A stretch of 64,000 bases of DNA from an uncultured bacterium (GTDB lineage Bacteria; Armatimonadota; UBA5829). Made by a program: the position numbers and the translations under genes. The notes under the pieces are model-generated. The model did not search any database. It was not told the DNA's origin and was given only the letters and a program-made list of their open reading frames with translations. The stretch lies in contig CALJES010000018.1 of assembly GCA_938074205.1 (NCBI GenBank), positions 48,520 through 112,519 of the forward strand. The letters are read 5' to 3'. This document shows, one piece after another, positions 21,355-56,823 of the stretch. Every line of letters begins with the position of its first letter. The stretch's first letter is position 1.

Positions 21355-22038
21355 TCAACTAATTCTCACCGGCGTGAAGCCCACATGGTCCGCTGATACA
21401 AGGCGGTATTCGATCCCGTTAACGTTGCCTTCAAGATAGTAACCCGTGTGGACGTGTCCGTAAACTACGAGATCCACTTGGTACTTTTTCAGAAGGTCAG
21501 CAAAGGCGTTGGGTTCCAGGTCGGCATTGAATGGCGGATAGTGGAGCGCCACGATTTTTTTGATGACGTGTTGAGGGATTTGCTTTAAACCTCTCTCCAG
21601 ATACATCAGTTCGCGTCGCAGAACTCTCTCATCTCCTGCGTCTTGATCCTCGTCCAACTCAATACGCCAGCCTCGTGTACCGGTTATGCCAACTCCGTCG
21701 ATTAGGATAGCGTTGCCGTGCACGAGCTCGATGCCAGGAGGCATTTGCGATCGTATTTTATTCGTTGCTTCTCGTCTCCACCAATAGTCGTGGTTTCCAC
21801 GGATGAGCAGTTTGCGTCCTGGCCTAGCTGCAATGAAGTCGATGTCGGGTTTTGCCTGATCGAACTTGAGCGCCCACGAATGGTCGCCGGCTACTATAAC
21901 CACGTCCTCTGGTCTGACTATGGTATCCCAGTTAGCTGCAATTCTTTCGGCGTGGTCTCTCCAGTGTTCCCCGAATACGTGCATCGGTTTTTTTACATCG
22001 TGGGAAAGGTGAAGATCTGATATTGCGTAGATTGCCAC
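21355..22038 (-). CDS. Metallophosphoesterase
   Basis: This 227-residue calcineurin-like phosphoesterase has all core motifs: SDLHLS (D-x-H), VIVAGDHSW (GD), IRGNHDYWW (GNHD), a His in VALHYPP and the final YGHVHTG. The Asp in GD is followed by His rather than the more common Val/Ile. It is 31 bp downstream of the YhaN-like gene and may be the last gene of the riboswitch-controlled transcript. The substrate is unknown. Confidence 0.88.
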   Translation of the reverse strand: MAIYAISDLHLSHDVKKPMHVFGEHWRDHAERIAANWDTIVRPEDVVIVAGDHSWALKFDQAKPDIDFIAARPGRKLLIRGNHDYWWRREATNKIRSQMPPGIELVHGNAILIDGVGITGTRGWRIELDEDQDAGDERVLRRELMYLERGLKQIPQHVIKKIVALHYPPFNADLEPNAFADLLKKYQVDLVVYGHVHTGYYLEGNVNGIEYRLVSADHVGFTPVRIS

Positions 22039-22069: not shown

Positions 22070-24520
22070 TCAATTCAAGTTTAGCACTGTTACTCGATTC
22101 CGGAACCAGTCTCGGTCCGAGAGACGTTCGTGTCGCGCACGGTGGCACGTGAGCATGATAACCTGCTGATTAGTTGATAGTTGTTCGGCTAAGTACCGCA
22201 ACGTTCGCTCGAAGCGCTCGTCGTCAAAAGCTATTAAGGCGTCGTCGAGTATAATTGGTAGTATTTCACCTGACGCAGACAACTCGCAGCAGCACGCCAG
22301 GCGAACCGCCAGGTAGATTTGGTCTTTAGCACCCGTAGAAAGACACGCGTCGATGGTTGCTTTCTCAACCACACGGTCATCTGAGACGCGCCGAACAGTG
22401 AAGGCTAGACTATCGTCAAATCGCAGATCTTGGTACTCCGGGTTCAGATGGGGAAGTATTACGGAAGCTCGACGATTCAAGACATCAGCCCAGCGCAATC
22501 TTGCTTCTGAAACAACTTCGCCCAGCACTTTTTCAGCCAATTGGAGTGCTTCCGCGAACCTAGTTGCTCGTTTGAGCTCTAAGCGCAGGGCTTCCAGTTC
22601 GGCTTGAGCTGCTGAGTATCTGCGTTTGTAGTTTTCGACTACAACGCCGACTTTCCGCTCGCATTCACTTATTAACCCCGCGATTTCATCCAACTGACGC
22701 CGGACCTTCTGTCGTTCAGCGTCTATCTCGAGTGATGACTGCTCATATGTTTGAACTGGCTGATTAGAGAGCTGTTTGGCTAGCTTCTCTGATTCTTCTT
22801 GGAGTCGAGACAATTCGATGTCGGGAATAATACGGTCTTCTAGGGTTGGCAGTTCCGATTTCTTTATCTGCCAGTAACGCTCATAGCGGTTACAGCCTTC
22901 TTTAAACGACAGCAAAGCCTGCTCAAGCGGATACTTAGCAGATATGCCAGCTTCTGCCAGGATGGAGTCTATGATTTCACGCTCTTGCTTTTCGCGCGTG
23001 CGAAGATCCGTAATGCTGCGTTCAAGTGAGGCAAGCTCCCGCTCTAATTCAGCAAGCTTAGATTGTTCCTCCAAATGTATTTCTAGTTCTCGAATGGTTT
23101 TCTCAAGTAAGGGGGCTACCTCGGAACTGCCTTCTACGTATGTGCCGAGAAGCGACAATTCTGTGGCTATGGAATTGCTGACTTGCTCGTAGCTATTTTC
23201 CGCGTATTGAAGTGCTAGTTCGGCTTCCGAGCGCACTCTGAACGCTCGCCAGTATAAGCAGAGCCCAGCTACAGCCGCCAACAACGCTGGCAGACCCAGT
23301 TTCAGAGCTACACCCAGTTGAAAGTTGCGAGCTATAAGAGCAATTAAGACGGCTAGTAAGAGCGGCGAGGCGGCGAGAAGCAGCACTTTGCCCAACCAAT
23401 TGTAGCGATCAGCCCTTGCTTTTTGGGTTTGAACCCGGCGTTTTGCATTATCAAGTGTGGCCGCCGCATTGGAAATTCTTCCACGTGCATCGTAGAGTCC
23501 TGGAAGGTTTTGGCGGCTTGCAGCCGCCAGATGCTTGCGCGTGTTCACGCGGTTTCGGAGTTCATCTGCTTCAGTGCAGACTCGCCGAACGTCTGCTTGA
23601 CGCTCAGCAATCTGATTCTGAATTTCGCTCAATCGAATAGCCGCATTGGAGATCTGCTCCTTCCTCTCAGCGGGAAAGCTAGCATATCTTTCGAGCTGCT
23701 TCATCTCAGCTATCAGTTCTTCCCGTCGCGCCAGATCTTGCTGAGCAGTGGTGACTGATTTCTTAATTTCCGCAAGTCTGCTGGCTGCATACCTTATGTC
23801 TAGATCAGCCAGACGTGTTTCCAGCTCATCTCGCTGCATGCGCAGCTGCTCCATCTCCCGCACATCTTGAGATGCGGCCTCCAGCTCTGAATCTAGCTCC
23901 CTTAGCTCGCGCGATCTCTGATCTATTCCTTCTTTGATGCGATCGAGAGCAGTTTTAGGCTTTATATCTCTTGAATTAAGGTGATATACCGCACTGTTCA
24001 GAATCTCCAATGCCCGTTCAGCGCCTTGGGAGTGTTCGGAGCCTTCGATGACAACCATAAGCTTTTCGCGGATTGTGGCTGATGGATCGAAATAGCTTAC
24101 TTCCTTGCCAGAAATAAGAGCTATTCGCTCGTAGTCCTCTCGTGGCAAGAGAAAAAAGTGGTAAGCAAGATCACTATGGCATTCAGCTGTCACTTCGCGG
24201 TTTGTGCGGAGGTCTCGAACCGTGAACTTACTTTCAGCAAAGTCTCGCAACACCTGGTAACGTGTTCCACCTGTTTCAAATACCAGCTCCACGGCGTATG
24301 ATTCACCGGACCAAGGTCTGAACGCGTCTATCGGCTTGATTTTGCCTTTAGATGTGCGCTTGGAAGGAAAGCCGCACAAAGCGGCGAGAATTGCCGCTAT
24401 CAGTGTCGATTTGCCACGTTCGTTCTCATCTATGATTAGACATAGTCGCCCTTTGGGAAACTTGATGTGACGATCGTTAATGCAGCCGAAGCCTGGGATG
24501 CTTATGGACTCAATCCACAT
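22070..24520 (-). CDS. YhaN/SbcC-like SMC-type ATPase
   Basis: This is an ABC/SMC-type repair ATPase of about 816 residues. The N-terminal nucleotide-binding half has ENERGKSTLIAAIL as Walker A, long coiled coils follow, and two hydrophobic helices lie in the middle (around residues 385-435), as in Bacillus YhaN. The C-terminal half has the signature LSTGAKDQIYLAVRLA and Walker B PIILDDALIAFDD. The P-loop begins with Asp where Gly is usual. The ATG at 24520 starts directly at the first beta strand and overlaps the nuclease gene by 11 bp. Together they likely form an SbcCD-like DNA-end processing complex. Confidence 0.88.
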   Translation of the reverse strand: MWIESISIPGFGCINDRHIKFPKGRLCLIIDENERGKSTLIAAILAALCGFPSKRTSKGKIKPIDAFRPWSGESYAVELVFETGGTRYQVLRDFAESKFTVRDLRTNREVTAECHSDLAYHFFLLPREDYERIALISGKEVSYFDPSATIREKLMVVIEGSEHSQGAERALEILNSAVYHLNSRDIKPKTALDRIKEGIDQRSRELRELDSELEAASQDVREMEQLRMQRDELETRLADLDIRYAASRLAEIKKSVTTAQQDLARREELIAEMKQLERYASFPAERKEQISNAAIRLSEIQNQIAERQADVRRVCTEADELRNRVNTRKHLAAASRQNLPGLYDARGRISNAAATLDNAKRRVQTQKARADRYNWLGKVLLLAASPLLLAVLIALIARNFQLGVALKLGLPALLAAVAGLCLYWRAFRVRSEAELALQYAENSYEQVSNSIATELSLLGTYVEGSSEVAPLLEKTIRELEIHLEEQSKLAELERELASLERSITDLRTREKQEREIIDSILAEAGISAKYPLEQALLSFKEGCNRYERYWQIKKSELPTLEDRIIPDIELSRLQEESEKLAKQLSNQPVQTYEQSSLEIDAERQKVRRQLDEIAGLISECERKVGVVVENYKRRYSAAQAELEALRLELKRATRFAEALQLAEKVLGEVVSEARLRWADVLNRRASVILPHLNPEYQDLRFDDSLAFTVRRVSDDRVVEKATIDACLSTGAKDQIYLAVRLACCCELSASGEILPIILDDALIAFDDERFERTLRYLAEQLSTNQQVIMLTCHRARHERLSDRDWFRNRVTVLNLN

Positions 24521-25682
24521 CTCGTGGCTCCAAAGGTCGGCCGTCCAGAGCACGCAGGCCGTAGTAGGTGGCGTCTTCTACTGTTGCCAGCTCTTCTTTA
24601 CTGGTTGCAGACCTTTTCAGTTCAAGCATTCTGCGTAGGAAGGCTGCGCGAATCGAAGCCGCCGCGGATTCTGTCAATGCAATTTCAGCATCATAGTCAG
24701 TAGTTAGGTTCGCTGCTCTTACTCGAACGTGGAAGTACTTACTCGAGAACTCAGATTCTATTGCACCGATGTCGACATCGCATCTGAGAGTGCCAGTCAA
24801 ATTTATTGCAATTATGTCTTGGAACCGCGCTCCGCACGATTCTACACTTTTCGCCACCTTCTCTAGGACAGACTCGTATGAGCGCGCTCCGGTCAGGTTG
24901 ACCACGACGTCTACAATTCGCCTTTGACCTACTTCGATTGTGTCAAGGGTGACCTGCCCGGATGAGTCGATGGCGCCGACTATTGCCACCTTTTCACCTG
25001 TCTCGTCAAGACCGCGTCCCTGAGTGCATCCGGAATAAGCTCCCATTATCCTGCCCGAAGAATCGGTTATGCATGAATATGAGTGGTAATGACCAATGGC
25101 GGCGTAAGTAAAGCCTTGCTGTGCCAGTTCCATATCTGAAAAAGGCAAAACGTTTTCTTTATCACTGGGTTTGAACCCATCTCTGGAGCCGTGGAACAGA
25201 AGTATATTGATATCGGCTTCGGTGCGGGGAATAATATCGGTCAGCATACGTTGTATTATTCCACGGTGGGCGTGGGCAATGCCGGTAACCGAGCAACCGA
25301 TGTCAGTTAACACCACGCTTTCAAACGTCTGTGAGGTAAAGATATGTACGTTCTGTGGCCAGTTGGCAACTGACGTCGGCAAGTATGGACTTCCGGCACG
25401 CAGACTGTCGTGGTTTCCTGGGGATATCAGAACCGGCCGCGGCGCAAGTCCGGCGAGCTGGTCAGCAATGAATGAAATACTCTCAGGTGTTACCGACTCA
25501 AAGTCGAACAAATCGCCTGGTATTAGAACGAGATCAGCTTGAGTGTCTATCGCTAGCTGACACGCAGACGCTACCGATCGCCTAATGTCCTCGCGCAGAA
25601 CAGCCTTTTTCTCATTGGTTAGCGAAAGTGCACCGCCCGCGGCAGAATCGACGTGACAGTCAGCAAATTGCACAAATCGCAT
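24510..25682 (-). CDS. YhaO/SbcD-like DNA exonuclease
   Basis: This 390-residue Mre11/SbcD-family metallophosphoesterase has FADCHVD (D-x-H), LIPGDLFD, SPGNHDS, LLFHGS and IGHYHSY in order, the five motifs that bind two metal ions. The C-terminal part resembles the YhaO capping and ATPase-binding region. It is the first gene of an operon with the YhaN-like ATPase. Upstream on the same strand lie, in order, a promoter, a c-di-AMP riboswitch and a hairpin terminator, so its expression is probably attenuated by c-di-AMP. Confidence 0.9.
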   Translation of the reverse strand: MRFVQFADCHVDSAAGGALSLTNEKKAVLREDIRRSVASACQLAIDTQADLVLIPGDLFDFESVTPESISFIADQLAGLAPRPVLISPGNHDSLRAGSPYLPTSVANWPQNVHIFTSQTFESVVLTDIGCSVTGIAHAHRGIIQRMLTDIIPRTEADINILLFHGSRDGFKPSDKENVLPFSDMELAQQGFTYAAIGHYHSYSCITDSSGRIMGAYSGCTQGRGLDETGEKVAIVGAIDSSGQVTLDTIEVGQRRIVDVVVNLTGARSYESVLEKVAKSVESCGARFQDIIAINLTGTLRCDVDIGAIESEFSSKYFHVRVRAANLTTDYDAEIALTESAAASIRAAFLRRMLELKRSATSKEELATVEDATYYGLRALDGRPLEPRDVD

Positions 25683-25711: not shown

Positions 25712-25742
25712 AAAAGGCTGCGAACTGGGCCGCAGCCTTTTT
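25712..25742 (-). terminator. Terminator of the c-di-AMP riboswitch expression platform
   Basis: On the minus strand the stem GGCTGCG/CGCAGCC (extended by flanking A-T pairs) is followed by TTTT. It lies 20 bases after the riboswitch aptamer and 30 bases before the nuclease start codon. The position is that of a ligand-controlled terminator. Confidence 0.8.
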
Positions 25743-25762
25743 AGTCTGAGAGTCTTCCTGCC

Positions 25763-25867
25763 GCGCCTACGGAGTTAGCTGACGGGCTAAGGTCGGAAGA
25801 AAACCTCTCGATTATCGATTCGCCCCTTTTGAGTGGGTCCTCCGCTCTCACTGCGAGATTAGGCGCC
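25763..25867 (-). promoter_or_regulatory. Cyclic-di-AMP riboswitch (ydaO/yuaA class)
   Basis: Read on the minus strand, the sequence matches the ydaO consensus in order: a P1 strand GGCGCC, CTAATCTCGC, GCGGAGGACCCA, GGGGCGAATC, the CTTCCGACC segment, AGCCCGTCAGCTAAC, and the closing P1 strand TAGGCGC. P1 pairs GCGCC with GGCGC. In family members, c-di-AMP binding normally switches genes off through a downstream terminator, and one is present here. The downstream gene is a DNA nuclease, which is not a usual target (cell-wall hydrolases and potassium transporters are). Confidence 0.92.
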
Positions 25868-25949
25868 AAGTTGTTCCGCTATTCGGTTTTGTATTCAGTT
25901 GTCGGCGTGTATGCCATCAGAGACGGGGAGGTGAAGCACACGCCGGCTT

Positions 25950-25979
25950 ATTCTAAACCGAATCCCCAATATGTGTCAA
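25950..25979 (-). promoter_or_regulatory. Promoter of the riboswitch-yhaO-like operon
   Basis: On the minus strand TTGACA (25974-25979) and TAGAAT (25950-25955) are 18 bp apart. Transcription would start near 25943, about 75 bases before the aptamer, which confirms the orientation of the riboswitch. Confidence 0.75.
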
Positions 25980-55439: not shown

Positions 55440-56318
55440 TTACTTGTTTGTCTGTTTACCTGCAGAGGCTGAAGCGTTCGAAATAGTCGTGATGCTCGGC
55501 TTTCGCCATCTGAAGACTATATGTACTGGGGCTTTGCCTTTAACTACGTGTCCCCCGTCTGAGTTGATCGCCGTCCGGACTGGCAGTTTTGTCCGGATAA
55601 AGTGAGCAAGCCGCCAGATGTCCGACTTGCCTTGGACTATGAAGATGAAGTGCCGATTTATTCCAATTGCCATGCGGTCTGTTACTCGATTCATGAACGC
55701 CAGGGAAAATCCGTCTTGCTGAAGCGGTACGAGTCTTTGACCCAATGCTAGAGCACTGATTCCAGGCTGCCCTTTAATACCTGCGTATTCGTCTGAAATG
55801 TCGAGCGTACCGTCACGGTTTATCACCAGCAGGCACCTTCCCGTGCGCGCACCTGCTAAGACACAGCCGTCTCGCTGGAGAAAATCCGCGAGAGCCATAG
55901 ACTGCGGATGGTGGTAGCTCCCAGTTACTGCAGCAACACCCCCGATCCTTGCTTTGGCTTGTTTCAACGTTTCTCCTGAGGGGTTGTAGGTTATGACAGT
56001 TTCCAGATGTTCGCATCTCGGAAGCTGTACAATTCTAAAAACGCGCCCTCTGTGCTTAGCCATCCAGACCTTGACTATGTGGGGTGGGTGCCACGTATCT
56101 ATCTTCGGCTTCGCTTCGTTGTCGCCCAGCAGCGATGCTGCTTCGTCAGTTGTGAGAACGCGTTCTACTGGTTGAACAGGTTGTAAGGGTGGCTGGTTCT
56201 TTCCGGTGTTCGTGGACAGACCGAAAGTTAGCAAAGTTAGTCCAACAGCGACCATCGTCGAACACAGCAGGCGTCGGCGCATCTCAAAGTTTTCTATAAA
56301 CCGTGTAATATTGCGCAC
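55440..56318 (-). CDS. Exported phosphodiester glycosidase-type (NAGPA) protein
   Basis: This 292-residue protein has an N-terminal membrane signal (residues 16-36) and a NAGPA/phosphodiester glycosidase domain, which in related proteins cleaves sugar-1-phosphate diesters in exopolysaccharide or cell-wall metabolism. Marks are VAAVTGSYHHPQSMALADF, the GRCLLVINRDG strand and the late RTAINSDGGHVV segment. The GTG start has AGGAG 9 bases upstream. A c-di-AMP riboswitch lies 220 bp upstream on the same strand, as expected for a cell-wall-related gene. Confidence 0.85.
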   Translation of the reverse strand: MRNITRFIENFEMRRRLLCSTMVAVGLTLLTFGLSTNTGKNQPPLQPVQPVERVLTTDEAASLLGDNEAKPKIDTWHPPHIVKVWMAKHRGRVFRIVQLPRCEHLETVITYNPSGETLKQAKARIGGVAAVTGSYHHPQSMALADFLQRDGCVLAGARTGRCLLVINRDGTLDISDEYAGIKGQPGISALALGQRLVPLQQDGFSLAFMNRVTDRMAIGINRHFIFIVQGKSDIWRLAHFIRTKLPVRTAINSDGGHVVKGKAPVHIVFRWRKPSITTISNASASAGKQTNK

Positions 56319-56540
56319 TCCGTTTGTCTCCTATGAGCTTATCTATCGAGTTTGCTCTTTTCTTTCGAATTCCGTGCCGATGGCACATGTTCTGATTACG
56401 ACTTTGCTCCACGGAACAGCTCGCGCAAAGTTCAGCTCAGCAAGATAACCTACACCGGTTGATCGGGGAGATCAGGGAACTTCGTGGGGATCAAAATGAC
56501 GAAGCTGCATCCGATGGGAAACAGCGGGCATCTTCCTCCC

Positions 56541-56655
56541 ACGCCTACGGGGTTAGCTGACGGGCTAGGGTCGGAAGAATAACCCTTCTCGTTGCGAGAT
56601 TCGCCCCTACTCCCGGGTCCCCCGATCTCCGGACCATAACCGGAGACTCGGCGCT
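56541..56655 (-). promoter_or_regulatory. Cyclic-di-AMP riboswitch (ydaO/yuaA class), second copy
   Basis: On the minus strand the aptamer reads in order: P1 strand GCGCC, a long GGAG/CTCC helix, CGGGGGACCCGGG, GGGGCGAATC, TTCTTCCGACCCTAGCCCG, TCAGCTAACC and P1 strand TAGGCGT. The match to the ydaO consensus and to the copy at 25763 is clear. A weak hairpin (GAAG-TGC with GCA-CTTC) followed by ATTTTG at about 56490-56533 might be its terminator. The promoter was not identified. It controls the phosphodiester glycosidase gene. Confidence 0.9.
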
Positions 56656-56823
56656 CAGTTTTCAATGTCGTAAATCTACGTTTTCTTTCGGAACAAGGCT
56701 TCCCTACGCACGGTATTTGCTTTTCCAATATGGTCTTTCCATACTGCGCGAGGGTAGCTTTGAACCTGTTCCCTTCGTTTTTAAAAACGGCTCAGATAAG
56801 CGAAAAGTTCCAACTCAACTGTA

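Follow-up and report, generated by a model that had tools for sequence, protein, structure and literature searches.

A probable c-di-AMP off-switch before a predicted YhaO-YhaN nuclease operon, kept in two genera of one family

We describe a riboswitch of the c-di-AMP class (RF00379) that lies in the leader of a predicted YhaO-YhaN nuclease operon. From its layout, which runs from a promoter-like site through the aptamer to a hairpin, it is probably a transcriptional off-switch for that operon. As judged from its sequence, the aptamer appears to be a genuine member of its class with an unusual target, it is kept across two genera, and regulation of the operon is likely. The window referred to throughout is the whole stretch of DNA analysed, 64,000 nucleotides long, and Table 1 gives the features of the locus.

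Table 1. Features of the riboswitch leader and the operon behind it, in window coordinates.
Feature	Position	Strand	Details
Promoter-like site TTGACA-18 nt-TAGAAT	25950..25979	-	11/12 matches
5' domain of leader, RNA start predicted	25876..25943	-	C-rich hairpin (CUUCACCUCCCC in loop), then AAUACAAAACCGAAU
c-di-AMP riboswitch aptamer (RF00379)	25749..25875	-	80.3 bits, gathering score 38
Terminator hairpin of expression platform, UUUU tail	25712..25741	-	-17.3 kcal/mol
yhaO-like metallophosphoesterase, predicted nuclease subunit	24510..25682	-	390 aa; PF00149 51.4 bits
yhaN-like Rad50-type ATPase	22070..24553	-	827 aa; AAA_27 30.7 bits (cut-off 22), AAA_23 43.9 bits (cut-off 27)
Third gene, second metallophosphoesterase	21355..22038	-	227 aa; PF00149 57.9 bits

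Results

A full-length aptamer in an operon leader

An earlier note, made from the letters of the window, had read a complete ydaO-class aptamer here on the minus strand and had called for a covariance-model search. In that search (cmscan over the window) the RF00379 match was significant (E 4.6e-17) and covered the whole model, positions 1-134 of 134. The aptamer sits between the promoter-like site and the hairpin, on the same strand as yhaO, as expected of a 5' leader. The minus-strand promoter claimed in the earlier note was likewise found as a promoter-like site, and a TTGACA box with a TATAAT-like hexamer (5 or 6 of 6 positions) is present in all seven leaders examined.

The same note had described a hairpin with a T-run. 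The hairpin (AAAAGGCTGCGG...CGCAGCCTTTT) is there, but the run amounts to just four U, partly paired with an A-run and overlapping the stem, and a simple terminator scan of the window did not flag it. Across the seven leaders examined, a hairpin is followed in every case by a run of 4 to 6 U. In the window, 29 nt separate the end of the hairpin from the yhaO ATG (25682), and the promoter scan found no promoter-like site between them, which makes it likely that yhaO is transcribed by passage through the hairpin. The corresponding gap to the first start is 29 nt in the window's own genome (G000), 29 in G002, 92 in G004, 27 in G008 and 7 in G013, where the first start is a GTG and the next ATG lies at 19 nt. 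A gap of less than 30 nt, as in four of these five copies, leaves little room for a promoter of its own, and the operon therefore probably depends on read-through.

Upstream of the aptamer, a conserved C-rich 5' domain (CACCUCCCC) and a AAUACAAAACCGAAU box were seen only in this leader type. The seven aligned leaders are invariant at 24 of 68 positions in the 5' domain, at 73 of 127 in the aptamer and at 10 of 41 in the stretch from aptamer to terminator. Copies from the window's genus (g1) favour one long hairpin in the 5' domain, and those from the second genus (g3) a short hairpin of the GAGGUGC/GCACCUU kind; we claim no common fold from our inspection of the seven-leader alignment by eye. 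Pairing of the C-rich element with the aptamer, tried by hand, was left aside because the aptamer is G-rich and would accept any C-rich stretch.

A YhaO-YhaN-like pair behind the hairpin

The first gene product carries the full metallophosphoesterase motif set (ADCHVD, GDLFD, GNHD, LLFHG, GHYH). Compared with solved structures, its sequence matched only SbcD (7dog, E 1.9e-06), yet it misses the curated SbcD cut-off (TIGR00619, 29.1 versus 77.65 bits). We therefore call the pair YhaO-YhaN-like: going by family models, the protein, labelled YhaO/SbcD-like in the earlier note, seems YhaO-like rather than a clear SbcD. Elsewhere in the genome (G000:C6), a second homologue is more SbcD/Mre11-like, at 69.3 bits for TIGR00619, also under 77.65.

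The adjoining ATPase, which had been described as YhaN/SbcC-like, is YhaN-like, with both AAA_27 and AAA_23 above their cut-offs. It carries the motifs DENERGKST, LSTGAKDQ and IILDDALIAFDD, and among solved structures it matched Rad50 entries with E down to 1.9e-09; its start may be an ATG near 24520 instead of 24553. Metallophosphoesterase motifs next to an AAA_27/AAA_23 ATPase are what we take as a pair of the YhaO-YhaN type. The third gene also proved to be the metallophosphoesterase that had been claimed after yhaN, and a homologue with 89% identity lies behind yhaN in G002. By family resemblance, a function at DNA ends is predicted for YhaO-YhaN.

Distribution of the leader and of yhaON

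We defined the leader type as a promoter-like site, a C-rich 5' domain, an AATA...GAAT box, the aptamer and a terminator. Among 291 genomes of the phylum Armatimonadota it is present in 8: in all three of genus g1, all five of genus g3, which belongs to the same family, and none of the other 283. The search pattern (the AATA...GAAT box plus the start of the aptamer) was written from seven leaders and can miss more distant ones; it matched 10 of 127 loci examined, all of them copies of those seven, and run backwards as a control it gave zero in the rows shown. Five records of the GTDB collection matched, namely the copies of G001, G002, G011, G013 and G014.

The G014 copy (record DJHI01000018, UBA5829) is cut by the contig end and so cannot be judged. 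The other seven are complete, with aptamers scoring 68.8 to 80.7 bits against the gathering score of 38. Five of these seven (G000, G002, G004, G008 and G013) have yhaON directly behind the leader, and two (G001:C275 and G011:C93) do not. The claim that the riboswitch is placed to control a YhaO-YhaN operon thus finds support in the sequence, and the conservation in relatives that the earlier note had asked about extends over two genera. Genes upstream of the G014 copy (HIT and LTXXQ-type) are those found at G004; the upstream genes of G013 and G011 differ.

Seen from the operon side, the yhaO-yhaN pair is present in 7 of 15 genomes of the family (G000, G002, G003, G004, G008, G011 and G013), a count that excludes the YhaO matches of G001 and G012; around the YhaO matches of G005, G009 and G014, the sequence read contained no yhaN-like ORF. 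The riboswitch stands directly before the pair in five of these seven operons, those of G003 and G011 being without it. More widely, YhaO-like or SbcD-like proteins occur in 84 of 151 genomes, the window's own included, and RF00379 in 52 of the same 151. When contigs and positions were compared across the 151, an RF00379 match fell at a YhaO match only in the five yhaON leaders.

Two yhaON operons behind a single lineage of the switch

In a tree of 84 aptamers, a set that excludes a G046 match under the gathering score (33.8 bits), the seven leader aptamers form one side of a branch (support 94/94; 95% of 200 bootstrap trees), in an alignment of few columns whose bootstrap has not settled. The proteins behave differently: YhaO of g1 and of g3 are about 25% identical, and a 37-row tree places them in two different clades, each with strong support. 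Forcing the five riboswitch-bearing YhaO into one clade costs 290 log units and is rejected (p-AU 3.5e-18), and a clade of these five plus G003 is also rejected (p 4.5e-05). By these sequence trees, a single switch lineage stands before two non-orthologous yhaON operons. With the aptamers in one clade and the YhaO proteins not, either the switch was kept while yhaON was replaced, or it moved before a second yhaON.

In G003, whose YhaO is of the window's type and lacks the switch, a gene for a family-4 uracil-DNA glycosylase precedes yhaO, and such a gene also lies upstream of the switch in G008 and G014 (UBA5829), with 80 to 91% identity; this neighbour was not seen at the window locus. Such synteny hints that the switch may have been kept and yhaON replaced in place. 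A GroEL-family tree of 22 of the 28 genomes of the class, which excludes G001 (protein not recovered) and five others, did not settle if g1 and g3 are each other's closest relatives. Without the order of the genera, it does not tell an in-place operon swap from re-use of the leader.

The leader as a free-standing RNA

The two copies without yhaON raise another reading, in which the unit of own promoter, C-rich 5' hairpin and terminator serves mainly as a small RNA that stands on its own, is about 220 to 250 nt long and senses c-di-AMP; its position ahead of yhaON would be a secondary matter, with a degree of read-through. The G011 copy (L121:2185-2316, minus strand) is intact, with promoter-like site, aptamer and terminator, and the end of a convergent LPG_synthase_TM gene falls at the terminator, about 40 nt beyond the aptamer; the sequence of this copy makes it a candidate free-standing RNA of the c-di-AMP class. 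The G001 leader is followed by about 800 nt without a clear gene and then by a GHL10 gene, and the better conservation of the 5' domain than of the aptamer-to-terminator stretch would fit an RNA with a function of its own. We nevertheless consider this reading unlikely, the best placed though it is among the alternatives. Five of the seven judgeable copies have yhaON directly behind them, four of the five with the start less than 30 nt from the hairpin, and it seems unlikely that two non-orthologous operons came by chance to stand behind one leader lineage. Moreover, a TatD gene lies beside the G011 leader and a relative of it (68%) near yhaO of G003, so that the G011 copy may be what is left of an operon since lost.

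Small RNAs that derive from SAM or B12 riboswitches and act in trans are known, among them Listeria SreA/SreB and Rli55. There, an intact riboswitch with its terminator can occur as a short transcript, and the G011 copy might do likewise; trans activity here is hypothetical. A stronger version, which we also consider unlikely, would have an RNA gene with a C-rich, anti-Shine-Dalgarno-like 5' hairpin behind which two yhaON operons were placed, acting in trans and gating DNA-end processing by c-di-AMP.

A model for the off-switch

Returning to the transcriptional off-switch, which we prefer, bound c-di-AMP would favour the terminator and thereby lower yhaON expression. At low c-di-AMP, pairing of the 3' side of the aptamer (CUCCGCAGGCGCGGC) with the terminator's 5' arm (GCUGCG...) could let RNA polymerase pass the hairpin and so allow yhaON to be expressed. 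The off direction is likely by analogy with the kdp switch (PMC6488665).

In the five yhaON leaders, the energy of this pairing was reached by 18 to 57 of 500 shuffles. The same pairing in the leaders without yhaON was reached by 42/500 (G001) and 6/500 (G011), so these two cannot be told from the yhaON copies by it. For other class aptamers with a hairpin, the figure was 64 to 151 of 500 in the five compared out of seven (G023 and G002:C168 left out). When leaders were folded with only the 5' arm of the terminator, P1 was broken in four of seven (G000, G002, G004 and G013), by 0.4 to 2.8 kcal/mol; it was kept in G008, G011 and G001, the last without a forced-P1 comparison. Pairing and folding, as modelled, would fit bistability, and we take them as moderate evidence for an antiterminator.

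These same numbers could be due to a constitutive terminator, or a decayed switch, with c-di-AMP without effect on yhaON: the antiterminator pairing is just moderately above shuffles, and for three of the seven leaders the model offers no alternative that breaks P1. We give this reading little credence, since the aptamers score as high as reported above before proteins of two deep YhaO clades, a pattern that points to selection on the sensor.

The source of c-di-AMP

In the window's genome (3.02 Mb in 19 contigs, 97.9% complete) a single DAC-domain protein was found, CdaA, a diadenylate cyclase (TIGR00159 220.5 bits, cut-off 188.8), which provides for c-di-AMP synthesis. The ORF behind its gene, 311 aa long, looks like CdaR/YbbR on inspection by eye and had no NCBIfam match. 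None of the 28 genomes of the class, several of them incomplete, gave a match to the DisA-linker family (PF10635); among 14 controls, B. subtilis, T. maritima and C. glutamicum did match.

The earlier note had proposed that the messenger comes from the DNA-integrity scanner DisA and sets the nuclease level, closing a loop from integrity sensing to repair, and an RF00379 aptamer before a repair-type operon does invite that thought, but with CdaA the sole DAC protein found and no DisA linker found in the 28 genomes of the class, some of them incomplete (the note had asked whether related genomes encode DisA), the messenger is unlikely to report DNA integrity by this route and we regard the loop as highly improbable. 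It seems more likely that the signal is the envelope, potassium or osmotic state rather than DNA integrity. In the off-switch model, c-di-AMP would be supplied by CdaA, and the input would thus be envelope, potassium or water stress.

Other targets of the aptamer in the class

The 28 genomes of the class hold 39 RF00379 aptamers, in 21 of them. Of the 84 aptamers, 78 have a downstream ORF of at least 100 aa within 500 nt; families were tallied for the class only (41 lie outside it), by comparison with representative proteins, from which the Pfam names are taken. The targets of the 39 are STAS (11), octopine-type dehydrogenase (8), NlpC/P60 (6), YhaO (5), the family of a 292-aa ORF of the window (2) and others (7).

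The window's genome has three RF00379 copies. One, absent from the earlier note, lies in the window itself (56527-56663, minus strand, 85.9 bits), 208 nt before a 292-aa ORF (55440-56318) that had no Pfam or NCBIfam match at E 0.001; a relative of this ORF is also found behind an aptamer in G002. The third (L050:7300-7851, minus strand, G000:C11) has a gene for a STAS-domain, anti-sigma antagonist-like protein behind it, with an AGGAAG tail immediately before the predicted start codon. STAS-like ORFs, assigned with Pfam run on 3 of the 11, lie within 8 nt of the aptamer or overlap it in all 11 class cases, with no terminator listed. Judging from these sequences, the end of the aptamer may serve there as the ribosome-binding site of a translational switch.

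Octopine-type dehydrogenase genes follow eight of the 39 aptamers (L073, L086, L090 and L120 among them), and at several such loci (e.g., in G005, G008, G009 and G017) a second ORF comes after, with GTIVAGALGNCVHVAG near its start. Single cases include an aptamer before a serpin gene in G010 (L118:615-1874) and one before an Nramp-family transporter gene in G017 (L112:167-1642).

Discussion

Two earlier accounts describe c-di-AMP riboswitches in the control of osmotic responses, of enzymes of the cell wall, and of transporters, those for potassium included (PMC7266159, PMC3766115). Among the closest known systems is the kdpFABC switch of B. thuringiensis, an off-switch by termination on experimental evidence; c-di-AMP is reported to fall under potassium limitation in this organism (PMC6488665). 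The kdp switch shares with the window a ydaO-class aptamer and, between this and the first gene, an intrinsic terminator. It differs in its target, which is potassium uptake, and in the distance of the terminator from the start codon, 143 bp there and 29 nt in the window, where the target is a predicted nuclease operon (PMC6488665). The C. glutamicum riboswitch has the same aptamer family and acts on a cell wall-related peptidase gene, not on YhaO-YhaN (PMC9960051); the NlpC/P60-type genes behind six of the 39 class aptamers resemble that target.

SbcCD/Mre11-Rad50 and the window's pair have in common the full metallophosphoesterase motif set beside a Rad50-type ATPase. The difference is that the window's first protein misses the SbcD cut-off, which leaves the pair YhaO/YhaN-like. 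In the literature searched, which had most subscription papers outside it, we found no description of a c-di-AMP riboswitch with yhaON; this does not show absence from print.

If the off-switch reading is true, a Mre11-Rad50-like operon would be under a c-di-AMP switch, with one lineage of the switch before two distant forms of the operon, and an RNA sensor would couple the processing of DNA ends to envelope or water stress. Falling c-di-AMP should then raise a repair-type nuclease in bacteria that have CdaA and in which no DisA was found.
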